Positions 20,666 through 39,473 of a stretch of 64,000 bases of DNA are shown here, piece by piece. The stretch is from Sediminispirochaeta bajacaliforniensis DSM 16054. GTDB lineage: Bacteria > Spirochaetota > Spirochaetia > DSM-16054 > Sediminispirochaetaceae. Under the pieces are notes generated by a model. That model did not search any database. It was not told the origin of the DNA and saw only the letters and a program-made list of their open reading frames with translations. The stretch lies in the NCBI RefSeq assembly GCF_000378205.1, contig NZ_KB899407.1:186001-250000 (forward strand), given 5' to 3'. Both the position numbers and the translations under genes were made by a program. Within the stretch, counting starts at the first letter, position 1. Every line of letters starts with the position of its first letter.

Positions 20666-20935
20666 CTATTTCTTCTTCCCACCAGGGGAAGCTTTTCGCC
20701 GTTTGAGTTCGGCAATGATGAGATCGTAGTTTTCAGGAATGTGCGGCCTGATGCAGCCGGTACAATCCTTGACCCCGTCGGCAGTTAAGCGATAATCCCC
20801 TCCGCAATCGGGAAATTGATAGAGAGGACAGAAGCAGAAAAGACAGTTCATCTCTTCGATCCCCCGGTGGCAGGGATAATAGCGACAGTCGCGGTTTTCA
20901 AAGAATTTGTGGCTATAGGGTCGTTTATCCTTCAT
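20666..20935 (-). CDS. Cysteine-rich small domain protein
   Basis: 89 residues with nine cysteines and several conserved aromatic residues: NRDCRYYPCH, NCLFCFCPLY, DCGG, DCTGC. This is the pattern of the 'cysteine-rich small domain' family (PF04071), which is often found inside anaerobic cobalamin gene clusters. It probably binds metal or an Fe-S cluster; no reaction is known. The gene overlaps the end of the cbiG-cbiH fusion by 11 bases. Confidence 0.8.
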   Translation of the reverse strand: MKDKRPYSHKFFENRDCRYYPCHRGIEEMNCLFCFCPLYQFPDCGGDYRLTADGVKDCTGCIRPHIPENYDLIIAELKRRKASPGGKKK

Positions 20936-23353: not shown

Positions 23354-24024
23354 ACTGACTCCTTTTCCATCCTGGGTATGATAACCGTACACAGCCGCCC
23401 ACCTTCCTGAACGGCATCCAGGCGACAATAGACGATCGACTCCCCCTCTTCGCCGATGTCCCGACAAAACCACGCCTTGTATCCGCTATAACCTGGATCT
23501 TCCGCAATAATCCTCTCGGCAAGATCCCGGCCGCCGCAAGGACCTGCGGTAAGGACGACAAATCCACTCATCCCCGAAGGGGGATGGGAAACGAATCTGC
23601 GGACAAAGGATGCGATATCCTCGCCTCCGCTGCCGTGGAGGGATACCAGTTCCAGTTCCTGCCAGGGGATGCCGATCTTTGCACAGGCCACCTGAAAGGC
23701 GCTTAGGCCGGGAACGATGCGAAGCTCCCACTGAGGGTAGCGGGAACGGACCAGGGGAAGCAGGCTATGAAAACCGGGGTCCCCGGATACCAGGATACCG
23801 ATCTCGTCTTCCCCCTCCAGGCGCAGGCGCTCTATCTCATTCAGCCCTGAATAGATGCCCCTTCCTCCCTCCGAAGAGAGATCGATAAAAGGGATTGAGG
23901 GAGGGATAAAGCGGAGGGCATGGCTCCGAAATCCGGCAAAAGCCGTGCACCTTTTTATGGTTTCACGGGCCTGATCGAGGGTGTAGCGCCCATCTCCGGG
24001 CCCTGTTCCGATGATATGGATCAT
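23350..24024 (-). CDS. cbiE: Cobalt-precorrin-7 C5-methyltransferase
   Basis: 224 residues from ATG 24024, which overlaps the cbiD stop (ATGA) and has GGAAGG 9 bases upstream; ATG 24033 is an alternative. Motifs IIGTGPGDGRYTLDQA, LVSGDPGFHSLL, and VPGLSAFQVACAKIGIPW fit the CbiE/CobL N-terminal methylase. The length is that of CbiE alone: the CbiT domain that does C15 methylation and decarboxylation is absent here and is not seen elsewhere in the window. Confidence 0.88.
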   Translation of the reverse strand: MIHIIGTGPGDGRYTLDQARETIKRCTAFAGFRSHALRFIPPSIPFIDLSSEGGRGIYSGLNEIERLRLEGEDEIGILVSGDPGFHSLLPLVRSRYPQWELRIVPGLSAFQVACAKIGIPWQELELVSLHGSGGEDIASFVRRFVSHPPSGMSGFVVLTAGPCGGRDLAERIIAEDPGYSGYKAWFCRDIGEEGESIVYCRLDAVQEGGRLCTVIIPRMEKESV

Positions 24025-25160
24025 TTCAGCCATCCTTCCACCCGCTCCTTCGGCCAGGAGCCCAGGGCATTGCCTTTCAAATCGAGAAGCACGACGCCGA
24101 TCGCACAACGCCTCTCCACCAGTTTCTCCGTCCGCTCGGCAGCCCGGCGGGCAATAGCGTTCCAAATTTCATCGAGGCCCCAGTCGTGTATCAAGGCAAC
24201 CGCCTCTTCGGCAAGGTTCAGCGACAGAAGCCTGCGGACCATCTCGGCCGAGGCACCGGCGGCGCCTGCATAGGCGGCGATCACCTCGAGCCTGGCATCC
24301 CCGCTGCTCCAGTGCGTGTTGAACATGGCAACGGCGATCTTTGTTAGCTTTCCGATATGGCCGACCAGAAGAAGTTCCTTTGCCCCATGGTCGGCCCCGC
24401 GGAGCAGGGCATGGCCCACATGATCCCCCACGGTAACCACCCGGTCCAACGCGATGCCCCTGGAAGAGAGAAAGGCCTCACCCACATAGCCTGGGGTAAT
24501 AATCAAACGGCTCATCCCGCTTTTCAGATAACTGTGGATCACCCGGTTGATGGATGCCTTGTAGGCCTCCTCCGACTTGGGTTCGACCACCCCCTTGGTT
24601 CCGATAATCGAGATCCCGCCCAGGATACCGATCCGGGGATTCCAGGTCTTTCCGGCCAGGGCAGCCCCTTCGGGAACGAAGATTTCGACCTGACAGCCCC
24701 TCCCTTCTGGCAGTAAGGGTAAAAGCTCCTCTCGTATCATCTTCCGGGGAACCGGATTAATGGCCGCCTCTCCCACCTTGCCGGCAAGCCCCGGTCGGGT
24801 AATGCGCCCGACCCCTTCTGCGCCGTCGATTTCGACCCCGTTCCCTTCTTTTAGGCGAACCCTGGCACCGATCAGTATGCCGTCGGTGATGTCGGGATCA
24901 TCCCCCGAATCCTTGCGCACCAGAGCCTCGGCCCCTATTCCGTCGGAAGTCGCCCCTATGTGCTCTATGGGAACAAGAATCTGCCTGCCGCTGTAGCGCC
25001 TGTGACCCTTCGGAAGGGTGATTTCGACCCGTTTATCCGCAAAGGTGCCGAGGAGAAATTCAAGGGCGGCCCTGGCCGCTGCCTGAGCGCAGCTGCCGGT
25101 GGTGATCCCCAGACGCATGCCCGAGACCTTCCCCAGCTCCTGATCGTACCACTGTGCCAT
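24021..25160 (-). CDS. cbiD: Cobalt-precorrin-5B C1-methyltransferase
   Basis: 379 residues, the usual length. The N-terminal family motif LGITTGSCAQAAA is clear, followed by GGISIIGTKGVVEP and the GHIGKLTKIAVAMFNTHW stretch of CbiD proteins. It methylates C1 in the anaerobic route and is not related to the other methylases of the pathway. It starts 2 bases before the cbiC stop and overlaps cbiE by 4 bases. Confidence 0.92.
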   Translation of the reverse strand: MAQWYDQELGKVSGMRLGITTGSCAQAAARAALEFLLGTFADKRVEITLPKGHRRYSGRQILVPIEHIGATSDGIGAEALVRKDSGDDPDITDGILIGARVRLKEGNGVEIDGAEGVGRITRPGLAGKVGEAAINPVPRKMIREELLPLLPEGRGCQVEIFVPEGAALAGKTWNPRIGILGGISIIGTKGVVEPKSEEAYKASINRVIHSYLKSGMSRLIITPGYVGEAFLSSRGIALDRVVTVGDHVGHALLRGADHGAKELLLVGHIGKLTKIAVAMFNTHWSSGDARLEVIAAYAGAAGASAEMVRRLLSLNLAEEAVALIHDWGLDEIWNAIARRAAERTEKLVERRCAIGVVLLDLKGNALGSWPKERVEGWLK

Positions 25161-25162
25161 GC

Positions 25163-25807
25163 TCAGCCCCTCTGTTCCGCCCTTTGTTCGGCAAGAAAAA
25201 GCAATCCGTTCACGATGGCCGCGGCAATGGGACTTCCGCCTCGTTCGCTCAGGTTGGTAATGCAGGGATAACCGGAATCGTAAAGGGCCTGTTTCGACTC
25301 AAGGGCCCCGACAAAGCCCACCGGAATACCGACCACAAGCGCCGGTTTCACCCGGCCCGATTCTATCATCGAAAGGAGCGCAAAAAGGGCGGTTGGCGCA
25401 TTGCCGATGGCAACCACGGCCCCGTTCAAAAGAGAGCACTCTGCCGCCTGCCGCATTCCCAGGGCCGACCGGGTCTCTCCGCTCTGCCTGGCCCCATCAA
25501 TCACCTCGGTATCGTTGAGAAAACAGTGTACACGGCATCCCAGTTTCTCTGCCAAAGCAGCACGAATTCCCGTCCGCACCATCTCCACATCGGTGACAAT
25601 GGGGCAGCCCGAAGATATCGCCTCTATTCCCCGCTTCACGGAAAGCTTAGGCACATAACAGCTCTTTCCAAACTCAACATCGCCGGTGGTATGGGCAATA
25701 CGGATCACGATCTCCGTCACATCATCGCCTGCGGAAAAATCCCCAAGCCTGCTCCTGATGATGCGGAAACTCTCTTCGGTAATCACCTTTCCTCTGCTAC
25801 TGTTCAT
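25163..25807 (-). CDS. cbiC: Cobalt-precorrin-8X methylmutase
   Basis: 214 residues from ATG 25807 with GGAG 8 bases upstream. Family motifs include VIRIAHTTGDVEFGKS (with the catalytic His), GCPIVTDVEMVRTGI, and AVVAIGNAPTALF. It moves the C11 methyl group to C12 to give cobyrinate. The start overlaps the end of cbiA by 11 bases. Confidence 0.93.
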   Translation of the reverse strand: MNSSRGKVITEESFRIIRSRLGDFSAGDDVTEIVIRIAHTTGDVEFGKSCYVPKLSVKRGIEAISSGCPIVTDVEMVRTGIRAALAEKLGCRVHCFLNDTEVIDGARQSGETRSALGMRQAAECSLLNGAVVAIGNAPTALFALLSMIESGRVKPALVVGIPVGFVGALESKQALYDSGYPCITNLSERGGSPIAAAIVNGLLFLAEQRAEQRG

Positions 25808-27284
25808 CGTTCTTACTCCTTGATTGCCGATACTCCCTGCAAGCCGCCACAAGGTGTCGCGCAGGTTCGGGAACGCCGGTAAAGTGGAGATGAAGATAGG
25901 CAGCCGTACTCCTACGCACCGAAAGGCCGTCAAAGCCTATCGTTCCTTCCTTGTCGAGTCGAAAAAGCCATTCGTTTTCGGATGGACCTTTCACCATATT
26001 TGACCAACGGTAAATGTGTCCCACCAACTCCATTCCCGCAGGACCGATCACACTCGGCCTTAGTGCCCTGGCCTTGTGGTAGCCCAGGGCCGAAAGCTTG
26101 TTGCCCATCTCGATCTCTGTATCGAAGAGGCCGGCCATGGGATACCCTTTTCCCCCGACAAACAGCCTCCGACAAAGGTACATGAGCCCTCCGCATTCGG
26201 CGTAGATGGGCATATTGTCAAAAGAAGCGGCCCGAATCGATTCGATCATCGTGCGGTTTGCCGAAAGTCGCTCTGCATGAAGCTCGGGATAACCGCCACC
26301 AATGTAGACACCGTCACAGCCATCGGGAAGCCGGCTTGCCGAAAGAGGCGAGAAAGGAACGATTCTGGCTCCCAAGGCTTCCAGCATATCGAGGTTGTCC
26401 TGGTAGTAGAAGTGGAAGGCATCGTCCATTGCCACGGCAAGACAAGGAGTATCGGTCCCGATCCCGGCTATAGCCCTATCGGCCCCACCAGACCTGCCCG
26501 AAATATCGATACCATCGCTGCTTTCGCCCCGGATCGGTGTAAGGGAAGAAACGGAGTCGGCGATGGCAAGCAGAGCATCCAGGTCGATATGCTCGGCAGC
26601 AGCATCGCCGAGGATATGCAGGAGCGAGGAAAGCCGTTGCCGCCCCTCCTTCTCCCAGGCGGCCACCAGGCCGAGATGGCGTTCCGGCATGGACGGCATG
26701 GACGATTTCGGAAGCCAGCCCAGAACCGGAAGACCGGTGGCCCCTTCCACGGCCCTACGAACCATGGAGAAGTGGCGCTCCGATCCGATTCTGTTGGCGA
26801 TAAAACCGGCGACAGGGCAGTCGGGATCGAACTGCTGCATGCCCAGGGCAACCGCCCCGGCGGTCTGGGCGGCAGCTCCCGCATCGATGACCACAATCAC
26901 GGGAGCCGAGAGGCTTTTTGCAACCGAGGCGGTGGAGCCTTCGGAAGAGATTCCGCCCCTGCCGTCGAAAAGGCCCATAACACCCTCTATAACCGCAAGG
27001 CTTTTCTGCTCTTTTCGGCAGGCCTCATTACAGTGCCCGACAAAAGAGGAAACCATTCCCGCTTCGCCCATCAGCACCGGATCGAGATTTCGGCAAGGGA
27101 GGCCTGCGGCTGCAGAGAGGTGACCGGGATCGATATAGTCGGGCCCGACTTTCCAGGGAAGAGGCCGATAGCCGCGCCGACGAAGTGCCTCAATCAGCGC
27201 AAGGGTCAGCGTACTCTTGCCGCTGCCGGAAGATGCTCCTGCAATCACGAAACGGGGAAGGGTAAGGGAAGAGATACGCTTCAT
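25797..27284 (-). CDS. cbiA: Cobyrinate a,c-diamide synthase
   Basis: 495 residues from ATG 27284, which overlaps the stop of the ATPase gene (ATGA). N-terminal P-loop GASSGSGKST and DPGHLSAAAG belong to the DRTGG/CbiA ATPase domain; the C-terminal half is a class I glutamine amidotransferase with the nucleophile in YAECGGLMYL. It amidates the a and c side chains using glutamine and ATP. It links the import genes and the ring-building genes in the riboswitch operon. Confidence 0.93.
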   Translation of the reverse strand: MKRISSLTLPRFVIAGASSGSGKSTLTLALIEALRRRGYRPLPWKVGPDYIDPGHLSAAAGLPCRNLDPVLMGEAGMVSSFVGHCNEACRKEQKSLAVIEGVMGLFDGRGGISSEGSTASVAKSLSAPVIVVIDAGAAAQTAGAVALGMQQFDPDCPVAGFIANRIGSERHFSMVRRAVEGATGLPVLGWLPKSSMPSMPERHLGLVAAWEKEGRQRLSSLLHILGDAAAEHIDLDALLAIADSVSSLTPIRGESSDGIDISGRSGGADRAIAGIGTDTPCLAVAMDDAFHFYYQDNLDMLEALGARIVPFSPLSASRLPDGCDGVYIGGGYPELHAERLSANRTMIESIRAASFDNMPIYAECGGLMYLCRRLFVGGKGYPMAGLFDTEIEMGNKLSALGYHKARALRPSVIGPAGMELVGHIYRWSNMVKGPSENEWLFRLDKEGTIGFDGLSVRRSTAAYLHLHFTGVPEPARHLVAACREYRQSRSKNDEQ

Positions 27285-28066
27285 TGCTGTTTTCCTCCCA
27301 GGGGAACGACAAAGGGACAATCAAGTTCCTCGTCCTGCAGAAGCCGCACATCGATGGAAAAGACATCCCCAAGGAGCTGCGGAGTAAGGACCACCGAGGG
27401 TTCCCCGGTAGCAAAAATACAACCGTTTTTCATCACAAAAAGCTGGTCGGAGTAACGGGCCGCCTGGTTGAGATCATGGAGCACCGTCACCACCGTCCGC
27501 CCCATCTCCTTTCGCAACCTGTCAATCAACTCGAGAATCTGGAACTGGTAGGCAATATCAAAATGAGTCGTCGGCTCGTCGAAAAGCAGGAGTTCCGCCT
27601 CCTGGGCCAGGGCCATGGCGATCCAGGCCCGCTGGCGTTCACCACCGGAAAGGCTTGCAACCTCACGCTCGCTAAAGTCAAGCATGTCCGTTGCCTCCAG
27701 CGCTTGCTCAACAGCCTCCCGGTCCCGGGGACGTAGGCTGCCGAACCATCCGGTATGGGGATATCTGCCATAGCCCACCAGTTCCTTCACGGAAAAATAA
27801 TCGGGGATCTGGGGAGTTTGGGCGAGAAAGGCCATGGTTCGGGCAAGGCTCCGTCCTCCGTAATTCTCCAAGGGCCGGTCCATGACCCTAACGGAACCGG
27901 AAACAGGCTTCAGGTTGCGGGAAAGGGCCTTCAGAAGCGTCGATTTCCCGCAGCCGTTGGGACCGATGATTGATGCCCAGGAGCCGGCAGGCACGGAAAG
28001 AGAGAGATCTTTAACAACCGGTTTGCCGCCGTACCCAAGACAAAGCTTATCAGCCTCAATGACCAT
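27281..28066 (-). CDS. BtuD/FepC-type ABC transporter ATP-binding protein
   Basis: 261 residues from ATG 28066 (GGGAGG 5 bases upstream), starting inside the end of the permease gene. Walker A GPNGCGKST, signature LSGGERQR, Walker B LLLFDEPT, and the HDL of the switch region. It belongs to the siderophore/cobalamin importer family. With the permease and binding protein under a cobalamin riboswitch, it is most likely the BtuD of a corrinoid importer. Confidence 0.88.
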   Translation of the reverse strand: MVIEADKLCLGYGGKPVVKDLSLSVPAGSWASIIGPNGCGKSTLLKALSRNLKPVSGSVRVMDRPLENYGGRSLARTMAFLAQTPQIPDYFSVKELVGYGRYPHTGWFGSLRPRDREAVEQALEATDMLDFSEREVASLSGGERQRAWIAMALAQEAELLLFDEPTTHFDIAYQFQILELIDRLRKEMGRTVVTVLHDLNQAARYSDQLFVMKNGCIFATGEPSVVLTPQLLGDVFSIDVRLLQDEELDCPFVVPLGGKQQ

Positions 28067-29081
28067 GGCCGCCTCCCATTTTCTCCCCCTTTTGCCTGAG
28101 CAGGTAAAGGAAAAAGGGTGCACCCAACATCGCCATGATGATACCCACCGGCAGCTCCTGAGGCCGAAGGAGGACCCGCCCGAGGGTGTCGCAGAGAAGA
28201 ACAACAACGGCCCCGAGAAGGGCTGAAGCGGGAATGAGGTAACGGGCGTTATTCCCGATCACAAGCCGCGCCACATGGGGAACGATCAGCCCCACAAAGC
28301 CCAGGAGTCCCACAATACTGACCGCAGATGCGGCGAGGAGGGAGGCAATCAGCATGAAAAACATGCGGGAGGCCTCGACATTGAGGCCCAGGCTATTGGC
28401 CGTTTCGTCGCCGAGAAGCAGAATGTTGAGTCGGTCCGCCAATAGCATGGAAAAAAGAAACCCTATGAGGGCGTAGGGCCACAGGATTTGGACCTGCTGC
28501 CAGGTGACGGCAGAGAGATTTCCCACCATAAAGCCGATCACGTGCTGAACCCGATCGGGAAAGAAGATCATCAAGGCGTTACTTCCGGCGCCGAGAAAGG
28601 AGGAGACGGCGATTCCCGAAAGGACGAGACGCAATGGGGATGCTCCCCCCTTCCAGGCCAGCAGGTAGACCAAAAGAGTGGCCAAAAAGGCCCCGCCGAA
28701 TGCCACCGGCGTCACAAGGAAATAGTGGCCGGGAAAAAGGATATAGATGCAGACCGCCGCAAGCCCGGCCCCGGCGGAAACCCCGATCACATTCGGCGAG
28801 GCAAGGGGATTGCGCATCACCCCCTGCAGGAGTGTACCGGAAAGGGCAAGACAAAAACCGACCAGGGCCGCGGCAATGGCTCGCGGCATCCGCACCATCA
28901 TCAGGATGCGGTGGTCCACCGACGTAGTGTCGGAAAACAGAGCCCGAAGGATCTGGCGGAAGCTAAAACCGGAAGAGCCGAAACGAATCGCTAAAAGGAG
29001 GGCGACAAACAGCAGACAGAGAAGAAGTACTAAAATTGCAAGACGGTAACTGGTGCGGCTCCTGATATCGAAACGGCTCAC
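28056..29081 (-). CDS. BtuC/FecCD-type ABC transporter permease
   Basis: 341 residues with about ten membrane segments. Family motifs: MRMPRAIAAALVGFCLALSGT, NPLASPNVIGVSAGAG, LLGDETANSLGLNVE and GFVGLIVPHVARL. This is the FecCD family that moves B12, haem or siderophores across the inner membrane. Overlaps of 4 bases with the binding protein gene and 11 bases with the ATPase gene show one operon. Confidence 0.9.
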   Translation of the reverse strand: MSRFDIRSRTSYRLAILVLLLCLLFVALLLAIRFGSSGFSFRQILRALFSDTTSVDHRILMMVRMPRAIAAALVGFCLALSGTLLQGVMRNPLASPNVIGVSAGAGLAAVCIYILFPGHYFLVTPVAFGGAFLATLLVYLLAWKGGASPLRLVLSGIAVSSFLGAGSNALMIFFPDRVQHVIGFMVGNLSAVTWQQVQILWPYALIGFLFSMLLADRLNILLLGDETANSLGLNVEASRMFFMLIASLLAASAVSIVGLLGFVGLIVPHVARLVIGNNARYLIPASALLGAVVVLLCDTLGRVLLRPQELPVGIIMAMLGAPFFLYLLRQKGEKMGGGHGH

Positions 29082-30109
29082 TCAGCCTTCCCCTCCCCGG
29101 AACCGAGACTGAAATCCGTTCCGGGATACAGGAGTTCGGCAATCCTCTGAAATGCCTCGGGATAGGCACGGCTCGGCTTATAGATGGAAAAGGACTTATC
29201 CAGGTAATGAAACCGTCGGTTTTTCACAGCCGAAAGGGAAGCCCACACGGGATTGGATGAAACCTCCATCTCTATTCTGGCCGTACACTTTTCCACATCA
29301 CCCATGGTGGTGACGAATATGAAATCAGGATCCTGTTCGAGGATATATTCAAGACTGAGGTCGACTCGACCGGCTCCTTCGAAGGCCGATTCACGATAAA
29401 TATTCACCGCTCCAAGACGCTTGCAGTAGTCTCCGGTCACGGTCTCCTCGGTTTCCACCTTCACGTAGTTAGTGGAAGCAAAGAGGATGCACACCTTCGG
29501 GTGTACTCCCTTCGGTACCCGATCGATAATGGACTGAACATTTTCCTGCGTCGGTATCAGATACTCTTCGTAGAGATCCCGTCGGCCGTTGAGCCTGGTA
29601 AAGAGATCGAAGATGAGACGGAAATCATCATAGTTTTCATAATTGATCCCAAGGCTTGCCACCCCTTCGGAGGCAAAAAAATCACTGATTTTTCGCTGGT
29701 ATTCACTTGTTCCCGAAAAGATAAGTAAGTCCGGTTCCAGTTTCATGATTTTTTCGACATCGATACTGGCAATGGAACCAAGCACGGGAAGATCTTTTGC
29801 CTCGGCGGGCACATTGATTGCCCCCCTCAGGCGGGCAAGGCTTGTTCCTCCGGCCATATACCAGAGGTCGAGTATCGAATTGTGCATGACGACGGTTCGT
29901 TTGGGGAATTTGGGAATCTCGACAATCCGGCCCGAAGCCTCCCGAAAGCGTACCGACGCGTCGCTCTCGCCCAAAATCGCCATCCCCGACTGCGGGCTAC
30001 CTACCGCCTTTCGACCGGATGTCGGCTCCTGTGTCCCTCCGGCAGAAAGCAGAGTTGACATACACAAAAGCAAAAGAAAAATGGCGAAAGCCCTTCGAAC
30101 GAAAACCAT
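29078..30109 (-). CDS. BtuF-like periplasmic binding protein of the corrinoid importer
   Basis: 343 residues from ATG 30109 with GAGGAGG upstream. Signal peptide ends LLSAGG; the lipobox position has Gly rather than Cys. The mature part is the PF01497 periplasmic-binding fold (TVVMHNSILDLW, VLGSIASIDVEKIMKLEPDLLIFSG). It is the first gene after the cobalamin riboswitch at 30198-30371, so B12 or a precursor corrinoid is the expected ligand. It delivers the ligand to the permease encoded next. Confidence 0.87.
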   Translation of the reverse strand: MVFVRRAFAIFLLLLCMSTLLSAGGTQEPTSGRKAVGSPQSGMAILGESDASVRFREASGRIVEIPKFPKRTVVMHNSILDLWYMAGGTSLARLRGAINVPAEAKDLPVLGSIASIDVEKIMKLEPDLLIFSGTSEYQRKISDFFASEGVASLGINYENYDDFRLIFDLFTRLNGRRDLYEEYLIPTQENVQSIIDRVPKGVHPKVCILFASTNYVKVETEETVTGDYCKRLGAVNIYRESAFEGAGRVDLSLEYILEQDPDFIFVTTMGDVEKCTARIEMEVSSNPVWASLSAVKNRRFHYLDKSFSIYKPSRAYPEAFQRIAELLYPGTDFSLGSGEGKAE

Positions 30110-30155
30110 TGTTCCTCCTCTGATAGACACAGGAGGACCAGAGACAGGAAGATCC

Positions 30156-30192
30156 GGAGAGCTGCGAAAGTGCAAAAGCATGGATGCTCTCC
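30156..30192 (-). promoter_or_regulatory. Candidate expression-platform hairpin after the riboswitch
   Basis: GGAGAGC (30186-30192 on the minus strand) pairs with GCTCTCC (30156-30162), with a 23-base loop. It lies between the aptamer and the ribosome site of the BtuF-like gene. There is no U-run, so control is more likely by translation or by pairing switch than by intrinsic termination. Confidence 0.4.
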
Positions 30193-30197
30193 GTTTT

Positions 30198-30371
30198 CCC
30201 AGGCAGGTCTTCTGACTTACGGATCTTCTTACTTCTACCGTCTTCCCACACCTTCAGATGCAGTGACGTTCCGCCTGTGGCGGATGGTAGGTTTATCCCC
30301 GTTTACAGCTCTCTTACCGAGTGCAGGACTCGCACCTGCTTCCCTATTCTGCCGATTCTGGCCACCTGGAA
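30198..30371 (-). promoter_or_regulatory. Cobalamin riboswitch upstream of the btu-cbi operon
   Basis: On the minus strand the conserved elements follow in order: GGGAA..CAGGTGCGAGTCCTG, the CACTG core with CTGTAA, GGGAAGAC, and the terminal AGTCAGAAGACCTGCC, closed by a short P1 (CCAGG with CCTGG). This is the B12 aptamer consensus. It lies 89 bases before the BtuF-like start and should lower expression of the whole importer and cbi operon when B12 is plentiful. A promoter lies just upstream (30383-30410). Confidence 0.9.
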
Positions 30372-30382
30372 TGGTTGGCTTC

Positions 30383-30410
30383 ATTATAGCCCCAAGGAAA
30401 GGCCTTGCAA
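30383..30410 (-). promoter_or_regulatory. Promoter of the riboswitch-controlled cobalamin operon
   Basis: TTGCAA (30405-30410), 16 bases, TATAAT (30383-30388) on the minus strand, directly before the aptamer. The rest of the gap to cbiP at 30524 shows an AT-rich stretch but no other feature that I can support. Confidence 0.65.
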
Positions 30411-30523: not shown

Positions 30524-32011
30524 ATGTCACAAACTTTGATGATCCAGGGAACATCCTCGAATGTCGGCAAAAGCCTCCTTGTCGCCGCCCTTTGCCGAAT
30601 TTTTGCGCGAAAAGGGCTTCGGGTCTTTCCCTTTAAAAGCCAGAACATGGCCCTCAACTCTTTCGTAACCAGCGAGGGGCTGGAGATCGGCAGAGCCCAG
30701 GCCCTCCAGGCTACCGCGGCCAAACGGAATGCCGAGGTAGCCATGAATCCGGTACTTCTTAAGCCGGAGGGTAACAGCAGCTCCCAAGTGGTGCTGATGG
30801 GAAAGCCATGGCGCCGCCTGAGCGGAGGTGAGTATTACAAGGCGAAGCCTGCGTTGTGGGGAACCATCACCGAGGTCCTGGATACGATACGAAAAAAGAA
30901 CGACCTGCTTATCGTCGAAGGAGCAGGCAGCCCCGCCGAGATCAACCTGAAGGAACACGAAATCGTCAACATGCGGGTGGCAAGCTATCTACAGGCCCCG
31001 GTTCTTCTGGCCGCCGATATCGACAGGGGGGGCGTTTTCGCATTCCTTTACGGTACCCTTGCCCTTCTCGAACCGGAGGAACGGGAACTGGTCAAAGGTT
31101 TTATCATCAATAAATTCCGGGGCGATGTCGAACTGCTCAAACCGGGGCTCGATATGCTCCGGGATCTGACAGGAGGCGTCCCGACCCTGGGCGTAGTTCC
31201 CTACCTGAAGGAGATATCCCTTGCCCAGGAAGATTCGGTGTTTCTCGAAGAGCACCGCTTTTTCGGCTCGGGAAGTACCGGGATAGCGGTCATACTCCTG
31301 CCCCACATCTCCAATTACGATGATTTCGACGCCCTGACCATGGAGCCGGGCCTGCAGCTTCGCTTTGTGGAACATCCAAGAGAGCTGGGGAACCCTGCGG
31401 CAATCATCCTGCCGGGAACAAAAACCACCATGGCCGATCTCCTCTGGCTCAGGCAGAGCGGCCTTGCCGAGGCCATTTGCCGCAAAGCCGAAGAGGGGAC
31501 TTCGATTATCGGCATGTGCGGGGGCTTTCAGATGCTGGGTAAGCGGATCATCGACAAAGAGGGGGTGGAGGGCAGCGCCGGAAGCCTCCGGGGCCTCGGT
31601 CTGCTGGATGTAACCACCTACTTCAGTCGGGAAAAGAAAACTATTCAGGAGACAGGTGTCCTCTGCAGCAACCAGGGAACCCTTGCTCCGCTCAAAGGGT
31701 GTAAGGTCGACGGTTATGAAATCCACATGGGTCATAGCGCGCTGGGAGAGTCGGCTGGCCCATTTCTTGCAACCGGCTCAGGGGGGCATGACGGTGCGGT
31801 TTCCCCGGACGGCCGCATCATCGGAACCTACTTTCACGGCCTCTTCGACGAGGCCGCTTTCAGACGGGGCTGGCTCGCATCTCTGGGCTGGGAGCCGGAA
31901 GGCAAGCCGGTAAGCCTTGTCCAGAAGCGGGAAGAAGAACTGGTGGCCCTGGCCGATGAGGTGGAAGCGGCCATCGATATGAAGCAGCTGGAGGCAATCA
32001 TCGGACTATGA
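30524..32011 (+). CDS. cbiP: Cobyric acid synthase
   Basis: 495 residues. N-terminal ATPase domain with MIQGTSSNVGKSLL and the SQNMALNS motif of CobQ/CbiP; C-terminal glutamine amidotransferase domain with nucleophile IIGMCGGFQMLG and the late His in GTYFHGLFD. It amidates the b, d, e and g side chains. No clear ribosome site is seen before ATG 30524. It heads a plus-strand operon with cbiB, cobD and cobT, divergent from the riboswitch operon; no riboswitch is seen on this side. Confidence 0.94.
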   Translation: MSQTLMIQGTSSNVGKSLLVAALCRIFARKGLRVFPFKSQNMALNSFVTSEGLEIGRAQALQATAAKRNAEVAMNPVLLKPEGNSSSQVVLMGKPWRRLSGGEYYKAKPALWGTITEVLDTIRKKNDLLIVEGAGSPAEINLKEHEIVNMRVASYLQAPVLLAADIDRGGVFAFLYGTLALLEPEERELVKGFIINKFRGDVELLKPGLDMLRDLTGGVPTLGVVPYLKEISLAQEDSVFLEEHRFFGSGSTGIAVILLPHISNYDDFDALTMEPGLQLRFVEHPRELGNPAAIILPGTKTTMADLLWLRQSGLAEAICRKAEEGTSIIGMCGGFQMLGKRIIDKEGVEGSAGSLRGLGLLDVTTYFSREKKTIQETGVLCSNQGTLAPLKGCKVDGYEIHMGHSALGESAGPFLATGSGGHDGAVSPDGRIIGTYFHGLFDEAAFRRGWLASLGWEPEGKPVSLVQKREEELVALADEVEAAIDMKQLEAIIGL

Positions 32012-32973
32012 ACCTTTGCCTGCCGATTCTTGCCGGGGCCCTGCTTTACGACCTGCTTTGGGGTGATCCTCCCAACCGTTTTCATCCGGTAGCCTGGATG
32101 GGAAGACTCATTTCCCGTCTCTGGCAGCATCGCCCCAAACAGGGGAAGTTACTTCTTTTTTCCTACGGCGCCCTTATGACCATCTGCGGGGCCCTGCTTT
32201 TTTCCCTTCCCCTACTTCTTTTGCAGAGGATTCCGGTCCTGCCGAGCTTTGTTCTGTCGATCGTTCTTTTGAAAATGAGCTTTTCTCTCACCATCCTCCT
32301 GCGAACGGGAGGTAAGATCGCACGGGCACTGGAAGCCGGTGACCTTGCATCGGCGAGAAAGCTGACAGCCTTTCACCTTGTCAGTCGGGACACGAGCGAA
32401 CTGGAGGAGTCGGAGCTTTGCGGTGCGGTGGTCGAATCCCTTGCGGAGAACCTTACCGACAGTTTTACCTCACCCCTTTTGTACTATCTTCTTGCGGGCC
32501 TTCCCGGTGCCTTTGCCTTCCGCTATATCAATACCAGCGATGCCATGCTGGGCTACCGCACGGGAGACTTCGAGTTCGGGGGTAAATGGGCGGCTCGCTG
32601 CGACGACCTTCTGAACTTCATACCGGCCAGGTTAACGGCCCTGCTCATCATTCTGGCCGGAAGCATCATGCCGATACGATCACTCCATGAGAAAAAAGGT
32701 AACGGTGCCCGGGGGAAAAATCCCCTTACATCCCTTTTTGCATGGCAGAATGCTACCGAAAGCCCCAACGCAGGCTGGACCATGGGCGCTGCAGCCGCTA
32801 TTTTAGGCTTACGCCTGGAAAAAAGAGGGCACTACGTCATAAACAGTGAAGGTCGCCCTCCGGAACCCGCCGATATTCGCTGTTGCATTAGGCTGGTTCG
32901 AAAATCTGCCCTCCTTTTTCTTCTACTTTTGGCCGGTATCCTTGCCTGTACGGGGGTGATCTTTGGTTCCTGA
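32008..32973 (+). CDS. cbiB: Adenosylcobinamide-phosphate synthase
   Basis: 321 residues, membrane protein with four or five hydrophobic segments. Family motifs: DLLWGDPPNRFHPVAWMGR near the start, ESLAENLTDSFTSPLLYY, and NAGWTMGAAAAILGLRL. It joins aminopropanol (or its phosphate) to cobyric acid. The ATG overlaps the cbiP stop. Confidence 0.93.
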   Translation: MNLCLPILAGALLYDLLWGDPPNRFHPVAWMGRLISRLWQHRPKQGKLLLFSYGALMTICGALLFSLPLLLLQRIPVLPSFVLSIVLLKMSFSLTILLRTGGKIARALEAGDLASARKLTAFHLVSRDTSELEESELCGAVVESLAENLTDSFTSPLLYYLLAGLPGAFAFRYINTSDAMLGYRTGDFEFGGKWAARCDDLLNFIPARLTALLIILAGSIMPIRSLHEKKGNGARGKNPLTSLFAWQNATESPNAGWTMGAAAAILGLRLEKRGHYVINSEGRPPEPADIRCCIRLVRKSALLFLLLLAGILACTGVIFGS

Positions 32974-34105
32974 TGCAAAACACCAAGCAGGGAAACCGGA
33001 ACAAGCGGCGCTGATACGCCCCGAGCTTCTTACATCTCAAAGGGTGGTTCACGGCGGAAGAGAGGCAAAACCCTTTGACTTCTCGGTCTGTCTGAACCCC
33101 TACCCTCTTCCCGATTCGGTTGCCACGGCCATTGCAGCCGCTCCGATGGAGCGCTACCCCGACACAAGAGGCCAGAAGCTTACCGGGGAGCTTGCAATGT
33201 TACACGGCTGTGATCCCGAACGTCTGTTGCTTACGAACGGGGTGAGCCAGGCCATCTTTCTTACCGCCTTCGGCCTCCTGGAACGGGGAAGAAACGTGCT
33301 GATTATCGGGCCAACCTACGAAGAGTATGCAAAAAACAGTGCCCTCATGGGGGCGAGGCTTTCTATTTTTCGGGCACAGCCACAGGAAGGCTTCACGCTA
33401 TCCATCCCTTCCCTTATCAGGACCATTGGGGAGTTGAAGCCCGCGCTGACATGGATCTGCAATCCCAATAACCCCACAGGGCTTCTTCTCGATAAACGGG
33501 ACATTGAGGAGTTAGCCGACTCTTGTTCCAGCTACGGCGGTCTTCTGGTGGTGGACGAGGCGTATATGAACTTTGTCGATGAAAACAGACGCTACTGCGC
33601 GGAGGCCAAAAACGTCGTGGTGCTACGTTCCATGACAAAGGATTTTGCCCTCCCCGGACTCAGACTGGGCTATATTATTGCACCCCACCGGATTGCAAGG
33701 GCCCTTAGCGCCGCCTGCCCCGAGTGGAGCATCAACGCCCCGGCCCTCGCTGCAGGCCTTGCCGCCATAAGGCTGCGGGAAGCCTTCGAAACACAGTGGC
33801 AACGGCTCCGACTGCAGCGGCAGAGCCTTGAGGGGGCAGCCGCAGCATTAGGTTACGGCATATTCCCTGGAACGGCCAACTTTTTCCTCCTGTACTCCGG
33901 AGCAAATGCGCGTGCACGGCGGTTCCGTGAACATCTTGCCGCCTCGGACATCGCCCTGCGCGACTGTACATCCTTTAACCTGCCGGGGTTTTACCGGATA
34001 GGAATTTCAAGCGAAGAAAACAATAGACAACTGCTCGGTTTCCTTGCCGCCGAAAGCGGTCCAACCGGACAGGATGAAACAACAGAGAGACGGGAGAAGA
34101 CATGA
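32963..34105 (+). CDS. cobD: Threonine-phosphate decarboxylase-like aminotransferase
   Basis: 380 residues from TTG 32963, overlapping cbiB by 11 bases. Class I/II PLP enzyme: WICNPNNPTGLLL, DEAYMNF and the PLP lysine in SMTKDFALPGLRLGY. It resembles HisC, but its place between cbiB and cobT points to CobD, which makes the aminopropanol phosphate arm from threonine phosphate. The first 35 residues are an extension before the usual fold. A HisC activity cannot be excluded from sequence alone. Confidence 0.85.
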   Translation: MVPDAKHQAGKPEQAALIRPELLTSQRVVHGGREAKPFDFSVCLNPYPLPDSVATAIAAAPMERYPDTRGQKLTGELAMLHGCDPERLLLTNGVSQAIFLTAFGLLERGRNVLIIGPTYEEYAKNSALMGARLSIFRAQPQEGFTLSIPSLIRTIGELKPALTWICNPNNPTGLLLDKRDIEELADSCSSYGGLLVVDEAYMNFVDENRRYCAEAKNVVVLRSMTKDFALPGLRLGYIIAPHRIARALSAACPEWSINAPALAAGLAAIRLREAFETQWQRLRLQRQSLEGAAAALGYGIFPGTANFFLLYSGANARARRFREHLAASDIALRDCTSFNLPGFYRIGISSEENNRQLLGFLAAESGPTGQDETTERREKT

Positions 34106-35130
34106 ACAACGAACAAATCAGAACAGCAGCCCGGAAGCACCTTGACGGACTGACCAAACCGGTTGGAAGCCTGGGAAAACTGGAGGACTTTGCCGTCAAA
34201 ATGGCGGAGATTCAGGGAAAGGTAGTTCCAGAATCGGGAAAAATGGGCGCCTTTGTCATCGCCGCAGACCACGGCATCAATGAAGCAGGGGTTTCCATGT
34301 ATCCCAAGGAGGTCACCAAGCAGATGGTTGCCAATTTTACCCAAAACGGTGCGGGGATCAACGTACTTGCGCGTCACTGCGGATTCGATGTTTTTATCGT
34401 CGATGCAGGAATAGCCTCGGACATCGAGCTTTCCCAGGTGATCGGCTGTAAGGTAGGATACGGAACCCGGAACTTTCACGAAACAGAAGCAATGACTGCC
34501 GACCAACTCGAAACCTGTCTTGCGAATGGAAAACATCTGGCGGAAAAAGCGGTTGCCGACGGCTACAAAATCCTCGCCCTCGGTGATATGGGGATCAGTA
34601 ACACGACGACCGCCGCGGCCATGGCAATTGCCGGAGGGCTGCCTGCCGAATCGATCATCGACAAGGGAACGGGTATCAGCAGCGAAATGCTCGATCACAA
34701 ACGACGTGTCATCCTCGAATCTGTCGAACGCCACGCCCCTTTTTCCGATGCAAAGGATATCATGCGCAAGGTCGGCGGCTTCGAGTTGGCTACCATGGCA
34801 GGCTTTATCCTTGGTCTTAAGGGAAAGGGCTGCGCCTGTATGATCGACGGATTTCCGGTAACAGCCGGGGCCTATATGGCCTGGCTCATGGACAACGAAG
34901 TTTCGTCTTACCTCTTCGCCGGCCACAAGTCAAAGGTGAAAGGACACGCGGTGATGCTCGATGCCATGGGTCTCGAGGCGATTGTGGAGCTGGATATGCG
35001 GCTGGGAGAAGGGACGGGGGCGGTTATCGGCGGCTTTCTGGTCAATCTTGGTATCAAAATCGCTTCGGAAATGGCATCCTTCGACGATGCTGGAGTCTCC
35101 CAAAGTACCGGCAAAGAAGAAAACTACTAA
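34102..35130 (+). CDS. cobT: Nicotinate-nucleotide-dimethylbenzimidazole phosphoribosyltransferase
   Basis: 342 residues; ATG overlaps the previous stop (ATGA). Motifs: LTKPVGSLGKLED, AADHGINEAGVS, LGDMGISNTTTAAA and the catalytic Glu region LDMRLGEGTGAV. It activates the lower-ligand base as its ribotide. The partner genes cobU, cobS and cobC are not in the window. It ends the cbiP operon. Confidence 0.95.
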   Translation: MNNEQIRTAARKHLDGLTKPVGSLGKLEDFAVKMAEIQGKVVPESGKMGAFVIAADHGINEAGVSMYPKEVTKQMVANFTQNGAGINVLARHCGFDVFIVDAGIASDIELSQVIGCKVGYGTRNFHETEAMTADQLETCLANGKHLAEKAVADGYKILALGDMGISNTTTAAAMAIAGGLPAESIIDKGTGISSEMLDHKRRVILESVERHAPFSDAKDIMRKVGGFELATMAGFILGLKGKGCACMIDGFPVTAGAYMAWLMDNEVSSYLFAGHKSKVKGHAVMLDAMGLEAIVELDMRLGEGTGAVIGGFLVNLGIKIASEMASFDDAGVSQSTGKEENY

Positions 35131-35414: not shown

Positions 35415-35570
35415 ATTTAGATGGTGTTGGGTTCGGGGAATCCGGTGAGAATCCGGAACAGACCCCGCTACTGTAACCGGGTACCAAGTTTCTACAAAGC
35501 CACTGGCGCAGGACGCCGGGAAGGCGGAAACGAGGGCCAATCCGGGAGTCAGGATATCCGGCCTTGAAAA
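35415..35570 (+). promoter_or_regulatory. Cobalamin riboswitch upstream of the HmuY-like/TonB receptor operon
   Basis: The aptamer consensus is clear: GGGGAATCCGGTGAGAATCC, then CCCGCTACTGTAA, GCCACTG, CGCCGGGAAGGCGG, and AGTCAGGATATCCGGCC. A 7-bp hairpin (ACCTTTC/GAAAGGT, 35574-35593) follows and may belong to the expression platform. About 170 bases separate the aptamer from the lipoprotein start at 35740. It should repress the downstream uptake genes when B12 is present. Confidence 0.92.
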
Positions 35571-35739
35571 AGGACCTTTCTGAAACGAAAGGTGCCCACC
35601 GCCATGCAAAGCGCATCTCGGGGAAGAGTGTGCCGAAGAAAAATCCTACCATTCCGGTTCACTGTCGGCCCGGCCTTCTGCTGTGATTTTTCCAGGTAGT
35701 TTCTCTATCCCCGTGATTCAATCAAACGAGGAGGAGACT

Positions 35740-36570
35740 ATGCGAAAACATGTGTACATGAAAAAAGTGGGAAAGGCCATCACGCCATTCCTGATAATCC
35801 TTCTGTTCTTTGCTGGCTGCGATCTTAATAGTTCCGATTCCGACGGTGACACCGTTACCTACACAGGCGAAAAAGTCAAATCAGGTACCACCACTACCTA
35901 TCATTACCTTTTTATCGACCTTGAAGATCCTGAAAACCCGGTGGAAGTTACCGGAGGGGATGATCTTTCAACTATTACAGAAGGATCAAACACCAATTGG
36001 GAGATCATGATTACGGCCCAGAAGGAAATCCTGACCAACAGCGGGGTAACCGCAACATCTTTAAGTTCCAGCGGCCAGGGTGGCGTGGTCTATGCCGAGA
36101 CAAGCAACTTCGACGCGTCGATAAGTATTCCCGAAGCACAGGCCCTTTTTGCCGCCGATTCAAATGACTACTCAAGCGACGGCAACGGAAAAGATTATTC
36201 CTATTATGATAAATACAAAACGACCAGTGCTGAACCCACCGAACCGACCACGGGGAATGCCATTTCCTACCCCGGCTATGCCTACAATGATAGTTATCCC
36301 CAGACCCCTGAACGAAACGGACGAACAACTTCCACTGCATGGATTTTCAGTGAAGATGTTAACTTCAGCCTCGGCAGGGCCTATGCCGAATGGGAGAGGA
36401 TGGCACCCAATTATTCCAACTTCACAAATAATCTCTACATCGTCCGAAGCGGCGACGGGAGTTCCTACTACAAGTTGCAGATCCTTGATGCCGAGTACGT
36501 GAAGGCGAAGTCTGAGAGCCAGACCAGTTATAAGTACATCTACAAGGTCAGGACCGCCCAAATTCAGTGA
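35740..36570 (+). CDS. HmuY-like surface lipoprotein
   Basis: 276 residues from ATG 35740 with a GAGGAG site; an upstream in-frame ATG at 35683 lies in the riboswitch leader. Lipobox LFFAGC gives a lipid anchor at about residue 27. The mature protein is rich in Ser, Thr, Tyr and Asn, and its start (FIDLEDPENP, NWEIMITAQKEILTNSG) fits the HmuY family, whose founder binds haem at the surface of Porphyromonas. Control by a cobalamin riboswitch and the overlap with a TonB-dependent receptor suggest a corrinoid-binding partner instead. The ligand is inference; the family call is moderate. Confidence 0.7.
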   Translation: MRKHVYMKKVGKAITPFLIILLFFAGCDLNSSDSDGDTVTYTGEKVKSGTTTTYHYLFIDLEDPENPVEVTGGDDLSTITEGSNTNWEIMITAQKEILTNSGVTATSLSSSGQGGVVYAETSNFDASISIPEAQALFAADSNDYSSDGNGKDYSYYDKYKTTSAEPTEPTTGNAISYPGYAYNDSYPQTPERNGRTTSTAWIFSEDVNFSLGRAYAEWERMAPNYSNFTNNLYIVRSGDGSSYYKLQILDAEYVKAKSESQTSYKYIYKVRTAQIQ

Positions 36571-38546
36571 TGGCCATGACAAAACAGCTTTTGCCTGCCG
36601 TATTGCTCATTGCGGGGGCCTTTGTATGGCCCCCGGCCCTTTCCGCCCAGCAACAGGAGGAAACAGCAGAAAATGCAGCAGCCGAAACACAAGCGGAAAT
36701 AGTAGAAGAGCAAACAGAGGAAGCAGTTGCACTGCCGGTGCTGAATATCGTGGTGGCGGGAACGCGGACCGAAAAAGAGCAGAAGGATTCGCCGATTCAG
36801 ACCGAGGTGATCACGAAGGATCAGGTTGAGGCTTCCGGTTCCGATACTCTTGAAGGAGTTCTGGGAGAAGCGGGCCTTCAGTTTGCCGAAACGGGAATGG
36901 GAAGCCATATCCAGATGCAGGGTATGGACGGGGAGCGGATTCTTTTTCTCATCGACGGACGGAGGGTAAGCGGCAGGGTTGCATCAAACATCGTGGCGAA
37001 TACCATTGCCATGGATAACGTAGAACGGATTGAGATCATACGAGGTCCGCAGTCGGCCCTATACGGCTCCGAGGCAATCGGCGGAGTGATCAACATCATC
37101 ACCAAGAAACCGGACTACGAACTATCGGGGGATTATCAGGTCACGACCCGGGCCCTGATACCGATCTCGGAGAGTTCCGATCCCGCTTACACATCATTGG
37201 CGAACAAACAAAGCGGCATGGCCCACCTGAACCTCCCTATCGGGGCCTTCGCCAACCGCCTTACCCTGTCGGCGGAACACGCCTTTCCCTATCTGGACGA
37301 TGAAGACCAGTCCCTCTATCCGGGCGCCACCAGGGCAGACGCAGGACTTGATTCCGACATCGTTTTTTCATCCGGAGGGACCCTGGCCTTCGGTAGTGCT
37401 TACTCCTTTCATCGCCAGAAGGAGAATATCTCCTCGGGAGGGGCCTTCGACCGAATCGATACCCAGAGGCTTAACTCCTACATCGCCTATGACTTCCCCA
37501 CAGAGAAGAAGGGCTTTTTCAAAGCGAACCTTTATCACAACTATTTTCAGCGGGACAAATCCCAATACAGCGGCATTCTGGACGAGTGGAACGATTCTGG
37601 CAGCGAATATCAGCACTATCTAAGCGGGGATCTCCAGTACACCCAGCCGCTTGGAGACCAGAACGAACTGACGATGATCGGTTCCTACGGATACGACAGA
37701 CTCAAAAAATACAACATCGGAGACTATGCGGTTCACCAACGCCATACCTTTTCTCTGGTATTGCAGGATGAACAGTACAAGAAGGACCACTATTCCCTGC
37801 TTGCAGGCTTGCGGAGTGAATACAGCAACGATTACGGCATCTTCTTCGCACCAAAACTATCCGGCATGTATGTGCCTAGGCCCGGGATACGAATCCTACC
37901 CTCTGTCGGACTTGGTTACCGTGCGCCCTCATTTCTCGAGCTCTATCTCGATTCCGCAGGCAATATCTATCACAAATACGGCAATCCCGACCTGGATCCG
38001 GAAAGATCCGTTTCCTTCAATATCGGTGTGGATTGGACCAGGGAAAACGTAACGCTGCAATTCGCCGGGTATCATAGCGAATTAAGCGACGAAATCGTCT
38101 ATGACTACACGGACCAGGCCGACGACGACGGACGCCAGGTCATCACCAAGGAAAACCTCGATCGTTCATCGAGAAGCGGTTTCGACCTTTCCTTGAACTG
38201 GAATGTGCTAACCGACCTCTCCATGACCGCACGTTATGGGTATCTGTTTGCCTACGACAGAAGCGCAGGTGAAGAGCTCGACCTTGTACCAAGCCATACA
38301 GGAGGGGCATCTGTGCACTACCTCCTGAAGCCTCTTGCCTTGAAGGCCAAGTTTTCGACTTCGGTGACAGGCCCCCACGAAAGAAGCGAGCATACCCTCG
38401 TTACCTTTGATGTGTATCTCGAAAAGGGCCTTAAGGACAATTTTGAACTATTCGGAGGCGTGGACAATATTACGGGTGTACAAGACGATTTCTCGGACCT
38501 TCTTGCAGGGCCGGTCATCTATCTCGGCATCCGCGGCAGCTTCTGA
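36570..38546 (+). CDS. TonB-dependent outer-membrane receptor, BtuB-like
   Basis: 658 residues from ATG 36570, which shares its A with the previous stop. Signal peptide ends ALSA-QQ. An acidic spacer leads to a TonB-box/plug start (LPVLNIVVAGTRTEKEQ) and the plug motifs ILFLIDGRRVSG, VERIEIIRGPQSALYGSEAIGGVINIITKK. The rest is a 22-strand-type barrel with a terminal Phe (YLGIRGSF). Size is close to BtuB. With the riboswitch and the HmuY-like lipoprotein it is most likely a corrinoid receptor; haem or another tetrapyrrole is the alternative. No TonB/ExbBD genes are in the window. Confidence 0.88.
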   Translation: MAMTKQLLPAVLLIAGAFVWPPALSAQQQEETAENAAAETQAEIVEEQTEEAVALPVLNIVVAGTRTEKEQKDSPIQTEVITKDQVEASGSDTLEGVLGEAGLQFAETGMGSHIQMQGMDGERILFLIDGRRVSGRVASNIVANTIAMDNVERIEIIRGPQSALYGSEAIGGVINIITKKPDYELSGDYQVTTRALIPISESSDPAYTSLANKQSGMAHLNLPIGAFANRLTLSAEHAFPYLDDEDQSLYPGATRADAGLDSDIVFSSGGTLAFGSAYSFHRQKENISSGGAFDRIDTQRLNSYIAYDFPTEKKGFFKANLYHNYFQRDKSQYSGILDEWNDSGSEYQHYLSGDLQYTQPLGDQNELTMIGSYGYDRLKKYNIGDYAVHQRHTFSLVLQDEQYKKDHYSLLAGLRSEYSNDYGIFFAPKLSGMYVPRPGIRILPSVGLGYRAPSFLELYLDSAGNIYHKYGNPDLDPERSVSFNIGVDWTRENVTLQFAGYHSELSDEIVYDYTDQADDDGRQVITKENLDRSSRSGFDLSLNWNVLTDLSMTARYGYLFAYDRSAGEELDLVPSHTGGASVHYLLKPLALKAKFSTSVTGPHERSEHTLVTFDVYLEKGLKDNFELFGGVDNITGVQDDFSDLLAGPVIYLGIRGSF

Positions 38547-38573
38547 AGAGAATACAATGGAAAGGAGTAAAGA

Positions 38574-39473
38574 ATGAAAAGCAAAAGCATGAGGAAAGTA
38601 GCCTGCATAGCTCTTGCCCTCGCAGGTATCTTGATGCTTGCAGCGTGTGCAAGTACAGGAGGAGAAAAGCTGACAATGAACACAAACGGCAAAAAGGGAA
38701 TTCTTGTGATAAGCTTTGGTACAAGCTACCCCGAAACACGGGCAGTGACCATCGATGCCTGCGAACAAAAGATTGCCGAGGCCTTCCCCGAATACGAGGT
38801 ACGACGCGCTTTTACCAGCCACATTATCATTGGTATTCTGGATAAACGGGATGGTATTCATGTCGACGCGCCCGCAGAGGCTTTGGAAAAGATGTACAAA
38901 GAAGGCTTTTCGGAGGTGCTCATCCAGCCCCTGCACATCATTCCCGGAGAGGAATACACGGACGAGGTTCTCGCCGTTGCACGCCGCTATTCCGGAAAAT
39001 TCGAAAAGATAGCGATAGGTTCTCCGATCCTTTCCACCACGGAGAATTATTGGAAAGCGGTCGACGCCGTTAAGGCCCAGTTACCGTCTCTCGGACAGGG
39101 AGAGGCTGTGGTACTGATGGGGCATGGGACCGAGCATCCCGCAAACTGTGCCTATGCGGCCTTTCAGTACATGCTCGCGCGAAAGGGTTTACCCGTGTAT
39201 GTGGGAACCGTGGAAGGGTATCCTGCACTCGATGATGTTATCGATCTGCTGCATCGTGGTCATATCTCAAAGGTGACATTAATGCCTTTCATGGTTGTGG
39301 CAGGAGATCATGCAACAAACGATATGGCTGGGGACGAGGACGATTCCTGGAAGAGTATTCTTACCAAAGAAGGCTTTACGGTCGATGTCTACCTCCACGG
39401 ACTTGGGGAAAACAGCATAATCCAGAAGATGTACATTGATAATCTGCGTAGCGCCGATGTCATAAACGAATAG
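38574..39473 (+). CDS. cbiK: CbiK-type cobalt chelatase with lipoprotein signal
   Basis: 299 residues. The N-terminus is a lipoprotein signal with lipobox LMLAAC (C25), so the enzyme should sit in the periplasm on a membrane anchor. The mature part is CbiK: ILVISFGTSYPETR, LIQPLHIIPGEEY, and a metal site that keeps spacing with Salmonella CbiK (H184 in MGHGTEH, E214 in GTVEGYP, H246 in AGDHATND). Cytoplasmic CbiK puts cobalt into sirohydrochlorin. An exported form is known in Desulfovibrio (CbiK-P) and its role there is unclear. It follows the TonB receptor by 27 bases. Confidence 0.88.
   Translation: MKSKSMRKVACIALALAGILMLAACASTGGEKLTMNTNGKKGILVISFGTSYPETRAVTIDACEQKIAEAFPEYEVRRAFTSHIIIGILDKRDGIHVDAPAEALEKMYKEGFSEVLIQPLHIIPGEEYTDEVLAVARRYSGKFEKIAIGSPILSTTENYWKAVDAVKAQLPSLGQGEAVVLMGHGTEHPANCAYAAFQYMLARKGLPVYVGTVEGYPALDDVIDLLHRGHISKVTLMPFMVVAGDHATNDMAGDEDDSWKSILTKEGFTVDVYLHGLGENSIIQKMYIDNLRSADVINE

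Follow-up and report, generated by a model that had tools for sequence, protein, structure and literature searches.

The 64,000-nucleotide stretch of Sediminispirochaeta bajacaliforniensis DSM 16054 analysed here (the window) carries a cobalamin riboswitch followed by genes for a lipoprotein, a TonB-dependent receptor, and a predicted lipoprotein form of the sirohydrochlorin cobaltochelatase CbiK. With moderate confidence, this set can be considered part of a B12-repressed system for the salvage of a sirohydrochlorin-like tetrapyrrole, with cobalt insertion in the periplasm and import by BtuFCD. The computation behind this reading found the riboswitches, the gene order, an export signal and intact catalytic residues on what is the sole chelatase of the genome (G000), the lack of HemB, uroporphyrinogen-III methyltransferase (SUMT), and precorrin-2 dehydrogenase, and a conserved link between exported CbiK and importers. 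The tight spacing of the three genes, already noted in the initial annotation of this DNA, is borne out: the ATG of the receptor gene overlaps the stop codon of the lipoprotein gene, and the CbiK gene starts after a gap of 27 bp. The coordinates of all features are given in Table 1.

Table 1. Features of the lipoprotein-receptor-CbiK operon and of the surrounding B12 region, in window positions.
Feature	Position	Strand	Basis or remark
Cobalamin riboswitch aptamer RF00174	35382..35579	+	heads the trio operon; cmscan 102.7 bits, E 1.4e-24
Leader / expression platform	35580..35739	+	160 nt between riboswitch and lipoprotein gene
Lipoprotein, candidate surface capture protein, distant HmuY-superfamily relative	35740..36570	+	lipobox FAGC; profile match
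TonB-dependent outer-membrane receptor	36570..38546	+	Pfam Plug + TonB_dep_Rec barrel
CbiK sirohydrochlorin cobaltochelatase, exported lipoprotein (predicted)	38574..39473	+	Pfam CbiK 313.5 bits; lipobox LAAC
Second cobalamin riboswitch	30185..30384	-	heads the btuFCD-cbi operon; cmscan 93.1 bits
BtuF-type substrate-binding protein (Peripla_BP_2)	29078..30181	-	Pfam
BtuC/FecCD permease	28056..29081	-	NCBIfam
BtuD/FecE-type ATPase	27281..28207	-	NCBIfam
cbiA	25797..27320	-	NF002204 463 bits
cbiC	25163..25933	-	precorrin-8X methylmutase, E 1e-49
cbiD	24021..25160	-	TIGR00312 364 bits
cbiE (CbiT part not seen)	23350..24165	-	TIGR02467 98.5 bits, above cut-off
cbiF	22577..23473	-	TIGR01465 314 bits, above cut-off
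cbiG-cbiH fusion	20925..22580	-	TIGR01466 288 bits + CbiG models
cbiL	19069..19806	+	TIGR01467 210 bits, above cut-off
cbiP, cbiB, cobD, cobT, directly upstream of the trio	30524..35130	+	Pfam/NCBIfam

The element at the head of the trio matches RF00174 over the full length of the model and far exceeds the gathering score of 31.5 bits, so its earlier description as a clear cobalamin riboswitch is confirmed. The 4.57-Mb genome contains only three matches to RF00174. Two fall inside the window, the second lying 5 kb upstream of the first on the opposite strand, and the third, a weak one (G000:C6:29944-30074, 33.4 bits), is located outside. In the leader that separates the riboswitch from the lipoprotein gene the predicted fold weakly pairs the AGGAGGAG ribosome site with an upstream UUUCUCU; this pairing is a suggestion only, because the fold z-score of the region, -0.97, is no better than that of shuffled sequences. 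No intrinsic terminator was found on the plus strand of the leader.

The trio is not isolated and forms the end of a B12 region, since a riboswitch-led btuFCD-cbi operon, the cbiPB-cobDT genes, and cbiL are located nearby. Behind the second riboswitch the genes follow in the order btuF-btuC-btuD-cbiA-cbiC-cbiD-cbiE-cbiF-cbiGH, and cbiP, cbiB, cobD, and cobT are placed between the two riboswitches of the window. The corrin and nucleotide-loop genes found thus comprise cbiL, GH, F, E, D, C, A, P, B, cobD, and cobT; cbiT, cbiJ, cobU, and cobS were not seen within the window. Additionally, a gene for a carbon-nitrogen hydrolase (19815-20660, minus strand) adjoins cbiL, and relatives of it are present near exported CbiK or cbiL in loci L087 (genome G108), L129, and L150; this hydrolase may belong to the exported-CbiK/B12 system.

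Against the Pfam model PF06180 the CbiK protein of the window scores far above the cut-off of 26.2 bits and belongs to that domain family; identity with the cytosolic equivalog NF047852, for which it reaches 312 bits against a cut-off of 400, is not claimed. The protein begins with a hydrophobic leader ending in its lipobox; export was called both with a script and by visual inspection, the criteria being hydrophobicity and the lipobox. Residues E127, H184, and H246 align with E89, H145, and H207 of Salmonella enterica CbiK (PDB 1qgo), and the catalytic glutamate and the two metal-binding histidines are invariant across 13 aligned homologues. The earlier call of a CbiK chelatase with a lipobox therefore stands, with a predicted signal peptide and intact catalytic residues. 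Genome searches identified it as the only CbiK in G000 and found no CbiX there. The substrate of CbiK is sirohydrochlorin, and the cobalt bound in a corrin is normally non-exchangeable. Metal exchange by CbiK on a finished corrinoid was ruled out on these chemical grounds, and the earlier proposal that the system changes the metal of a captured corrinoid is not supported.

If CbiK worked in the cytosol, either because its translation begins at an internal start (ATG 38676) or because its export is inefficient, the trio would be the tail of an ordinary cbi operon. A chelatase is indeed required by the pathway, the genome searches found no second one, and the internal ATG has a GGAGG 13 nt upstream that is kept in the sister genome G001; however, the better-placed AAGGAG belongs to the upstream start, export signals with dissimilar leaders recur in the CbiK proteins of 28 spirochaetes and of many Bacillota, and G021 has a lipobox but lacks any start codon from there to the CbiK domain, all of which makes this explanation quite improbable.

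Genome searches with positive controls found no HemB, no SUMT above the cut-off, and no precorrin-2 dehydrogenase of family TIGR01470 in G000 or in the single-contig sister genome G001, from which CbiX is also absent; the genome-wide absence calls cover HemB, SUMT, TIGR01470, and CbiX. Because the first three are missing, the pathway of G000 is cut exactly upstream of the CbiK substrate, and it resumes at CbiL. Judged from its genes, the organism seems unable to make the tetrapyrrole ring (uroporphyrinogen III, sirohydrochlorin), and the predicted pattern is that of a tetrapyrrole precursor salvager with a gap reaching down to sirohydrochlorin. This central point had escaped the initial annotation. 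Three spirochaetes with cytosolic CbiK (G013, G038, and G045) carry HemB, SUMT, and precorrin-2 dehydrogenase, all three. Across 51 genomes HemB and above-cut-off SUMT co-occur, the exceptions being G206, in which a contig end truncates the SUMT match, and G014, whose HemB fragment spans 46 residues of a 1739-aa frame and was scored as absent.

A link between CbiK export and the loss of HemB was considered and rejected: CbiK is exported in 21 of 31 HemB-minus and in 7 of 10 HemB-plus spirochaetes (p = 1), ten HemB-minus spirochaete genomes have a cytosolic CbiK, and in one clostridial operon the exported CbiK is located next to SirC and HemA. Because export does not track HemB loss, salvage cannot explain every exported CbiK; it is needed in genomes like G000, yet it is not the sole use of such proteins. 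Cobalt scavenging, in which exported CbiK would bind or load cobalt for uptake and the tetrapyrrole would, in producers, be a self-made carrier, fits the occurrence of exported CbiK in tetrapyrrole-making genomes and the existence of some CbiK-bearing delta-proteobacteria without any known cobalt transporter (PMC545781). For the window it is highly improbable, considering the apparent inability of G000 to make sirohydrochlorin and the fact that no exporter was identified.

The lipoprotein, whose mature form starts at Cys27, belongs to no Pfam family; HmuY Pfam models at E 0.1 match neither it nor its homologues from G001, G050, and G008, and the closest-relative scan of genome contigs returned no relative. 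A profile built from four lipoprotein relatives matches only two solved structures, 8b61 (HmuY-Bf3, E 0.0003) and 8b6a (HmuY-Bf2, E 0.022), and the AlphaFold model made with four sequences has a pLDDT of 33. On sequence grounds the protein is best called a distant HmuY-superfamily candidate; its initial description as HmuY-like holds at the level of a distant profile match but not as membership in a Pfam HmuY family. Since there is a single His in the mature protein, a bis-His haem site of the Porphyromonas gingivalis type is lacking, and haem held in this way is an unlikely ligand.

This distant likeness to HmuY also favours haem or iron acquisition, in which the exported CbiK, as a protein of the IhtB/FetB or CbiKP type, would bind haem or remove iron and be fed by a HmuY/HmuR-like pair. 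P. gingivalis FetB is the third-best solved relative of the window CbiK (187 bits), IhtB is thought to strip iron from haem beside the receptor IhtA and the importer IhtC-E (PMC10913741), and the literature connects the nearest exported CbiK relatives with haem. We nevertheless regard this explanation as unlikely: the operon is controlled by a cobalamin riboswitch and is contiguous with cbi genes, the closest solved relative of its CbiK is that of S. enterica (221 bits), the lipoprotein has no bis-His site, and the HmuY structures that it matches best are, as reported, one that does not bind haem or PPIX and one that binds PPIX better than haem (PMC12106395).

The receptor falls under every NCBIfam cut-off, those for BtuB and haem receptors included; with the BtuB models it scores 126.7 bits against a cut-off of 599.7 (TIGR01779) and 89.6 against 836 (NF007926). 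It is 35% identical to a TonB-dependent transporter encoded divergently from exported CbiK in G228. Its low BtuB scores count against plain corrinoid uptake, in which the lipoprotein and the receptor would be analogues of BtuB, BtuG, or BtuH for cobamides or cobinamide and CbiK would be there for another purpose. A riboswitch, a TonB receptor, and a lipoprotein do make up the usual layout of B12 uptake, for example in Bacteroides (PMC8941943), and BtuFCD and cobT/cbiB are present, but such uptake leaves unexplained both an exported, by prediction catalytically intact, sole chelatase and the retention of cbiL-cbiA, and it appears improbable.

According to the salvage reading, which we prefer, low B12 would let the riboswitches permit expression of the trio and of btuFCD-cbi. 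The surface lipoprotein and the TonB receptor would then take up a sirohydrochlorin-like tetrapyrrole from outside, CbiK, itself a predicted lipoprotein, would insert cobalt into the captured ring in the periplasm, and BtuFCD, encoded under the second riboswitch in one operon with cbi genes, would import the cobalt form, which CbiL and the later enzymes would convert to B12. The identity of the ligand, the direction of the reaction, the order of the steps, and the place of each lipoprotein are what we infer here. A wider and rather improbable version has sirohydrochlorin as a shared, diffusible compound, released by producers, loaded with cobalt by surface or periplasmic CbiK, and taken up by BtuFCD-type importers; if this were true, the ring would carry cobalt and at the same time be traded as a precursor of B12.

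The initial annotation looked to other genomes for the trio and for a riboswitch in front of it. The exact trio was found in G000 and G001 only. In G001, which is the one further member of the genus in the sample, the lipoprotein, receptor, and CbiK are 82, 95, and 97% identical to those of the window and an orthologous riboswitch (L013 11137-11334, 102.5 bits) stands ahead of them; conservation beyond one genus thus failed to appear, and the riboswitch precedes the trio in both genomes. In G008 and G050, lipoprotein relatives adjoin a TonB receptor 34-35% identical to that of the window, but these pairs are without CbiK, and no riboswitch is present at the scanned G008 locus; this speaks against the salvage reading.

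The link between exported CbiK and uptake genes is much wider than the trio. Among the 41 spirochaete genomes with a full-length CbiK, the protein has a predicted export signal in 28, and in 23 of these 28 loci a cobalamin riboswitch is located in the operon leader; most of the exported CbiK genes are followed by genes for a Peripla_BP_2 substrate-binding protein (SBP), FecCD/BtuC, and BtuD. In G014, G057, and G315 a single riboswitch-led run encodes an outer membrane-like protein, exported CbiK, a NEAT-like protein, SBP, BtuC, BtuD, CbiA, and more Cbi proteins. In G228 the genes for a TonB receptor and then for TonB are oriented divergently from those for exported CbiK-SBP, and each of the two sides has a cobalamin-type riboswitch. 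In G108, BtuFCD proteins 55-69% identical to those of the window (60% for BtuF, 69% for BtuC) are encoded divergently from exported CbiK, also with a riboswitch on both sides.

Outside the spirochaetes 80 CbiK loci were sampled, with 34 scored as exported and 39 as cytosolic. An ABC importer of the metal-chelate/corrinoid type lies no more than three genes away from 27 of the former and one of the latter (p = 2e-12, to be taken as a guide only, the rows being related). All eight of the scanned exported-CbiK loci have a riboswitch in the leader; in the cytosolic-CbiK controls it either heads the cbi operon 3-9 kb upstream or is absent. On the CbiK tree the export label switches 16 times, with at least eight of the switches forced by strong branches, and because label changes recur in this way export was gained or lost repeatedly along with the importer linkage. 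Besides spirochaetes, the taxa in which exported CbiK is paired with an importer include many gut Bacillota, Anaerolineae, and an actinobacterial MAG. The core of the earlier proposal, a B12-switched capture and import set with an extracytoplasmic CbiK, is supported by these repeated ties to uptake genes and cobalamin riboswitches. In some Bacillota loci (L130 and L141) cytosolic and exported copies of CbiK are found in tandem.

Several known systems resemble the locus in part. CbiKP of Desulfovibrio vulgaris (PDB 2xvx/2xvy/2xvz), a 187-bit match, is, like the window CbiK, an exported member of the CbiK family; we take it to be a cobaltochelatase and haem binder, and D. vulgaris presumably also has a second, cytosolic CbiK. 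In the window, by contrast, the exported CbiK is the only copy, is under a cobalamin riboswitch, and is accompanied by an outer membrane receptor. S. enterica CbiK shares the catalytic residues but is cytosolic and encoded inside the cbi operon. The IhtAB(CDE) system of P. gingivalis (PMC10913741), in which IhtB is FetB (PDB 9b86), resembles the window in that a CbiK-like lipoprotein and an ABC importer accompany its TonB receptor; it is read as removing iron from haem, no link with B12 salvage being drawn, and its lipoprotein and receptor genes differ from those described here. With IhtA/IhtB and CbiKP as precedents, the suggestion that a chelatase beside an uptake receptor is new was only partly right. 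According to work cited in PMC6461909, P. gingivalis lacks the steps to precorrin-2 while corrin genes are present.

The precursor salvagers presented by Shelton et al. (PMC6461909) have, like G000, lost early tetrapyrrole genes and kept the corrin pathway; the validated ones take up 5-aminolevulinic acid by uptake machinery that is left unnamed. Unlike in these, the gap in G000 reaches sirohydrochlorin, and a candidate uptake machine can be given. In Bacteroidetes, divergent HmuR/HmuY-type genes are located behind a cobalamin riboswitch, a feature shared with the window, but they have been described with the CobN-like HmuS chelatase family and not with exported CbiK (PMC10100974). Exported CbiK (CbiKP, IhtB/FetB), precursor salvagers, and riboswitch-led HmuR/HmuY-like operons are thus already known. 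In the literature searched, which includes few subscription papers, exported CbiK was nowhere placed in B12-repressed import, nor was it said to feed corrin synthesis in tetrapyrrole auxotrophs.

It has been unclear since 2000 (Roper et al., cited in PMC6461909) from where the working corrin pathway of bacteria such as P. gingivalis, which do not make the tetrapyrrole, is supplied with it. The locus suggests a testable answer, namely B12-switched uptake of a ring at the sirohydrochlorin level with cobalt inserted outside the cytoplasm. Models of gut and sediment communities would then have to include a B12 precursor that is traded, and exported CbiK proteins at present assigned to haem or to B12 synthesis in the cytosol would receive a new role.

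It is also worth describing some variants of CbiK and its neighbours met in the survey. In L163 (9824-11200) an exported CbiK continues at its C-terminus into a domain akin to the NEAT-like partner, possibly a chelatase/tetrapyrrole-binding fusion; the NEAT identity of the 248-aa partner protein itself is sub-threshold (20 against 32.8 bits, with PDB NEAT matches at E 0.06). An unnamed family of partner proteins of 140-370 aa, whose similarity to NEAT domains is sub-threshold, is present in the exported-CbiK operons of L018 (10190-10936), L145, L173, L175, L185, and L201. The SBP beside exported CbiK in L127 (3861-5285) bears S-layer homology domains, which place it at the clostridial cell surface. 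In L113 (9027-12001) of G159, exported CbiK is followed by a TonB receptor; this genome has no HemB and no corrin-methyltransferase match, and no riboswitch was found, so that the exported CbiK of G159 may serve a different purpose. The short and very divergent cytosolic CbiK-like proteins of L116-L119 (family f46) are possibly another chelatase; in six genomes with this family the contig also bears hemB, at a distance of about 8-14 kb. Finally, in L091 (1455-3791, G120) a 778-aa fusion of an ammonium transporter with a methyl-accepting chemotaxis domain adjoins exported CbiK and a riboswitch.
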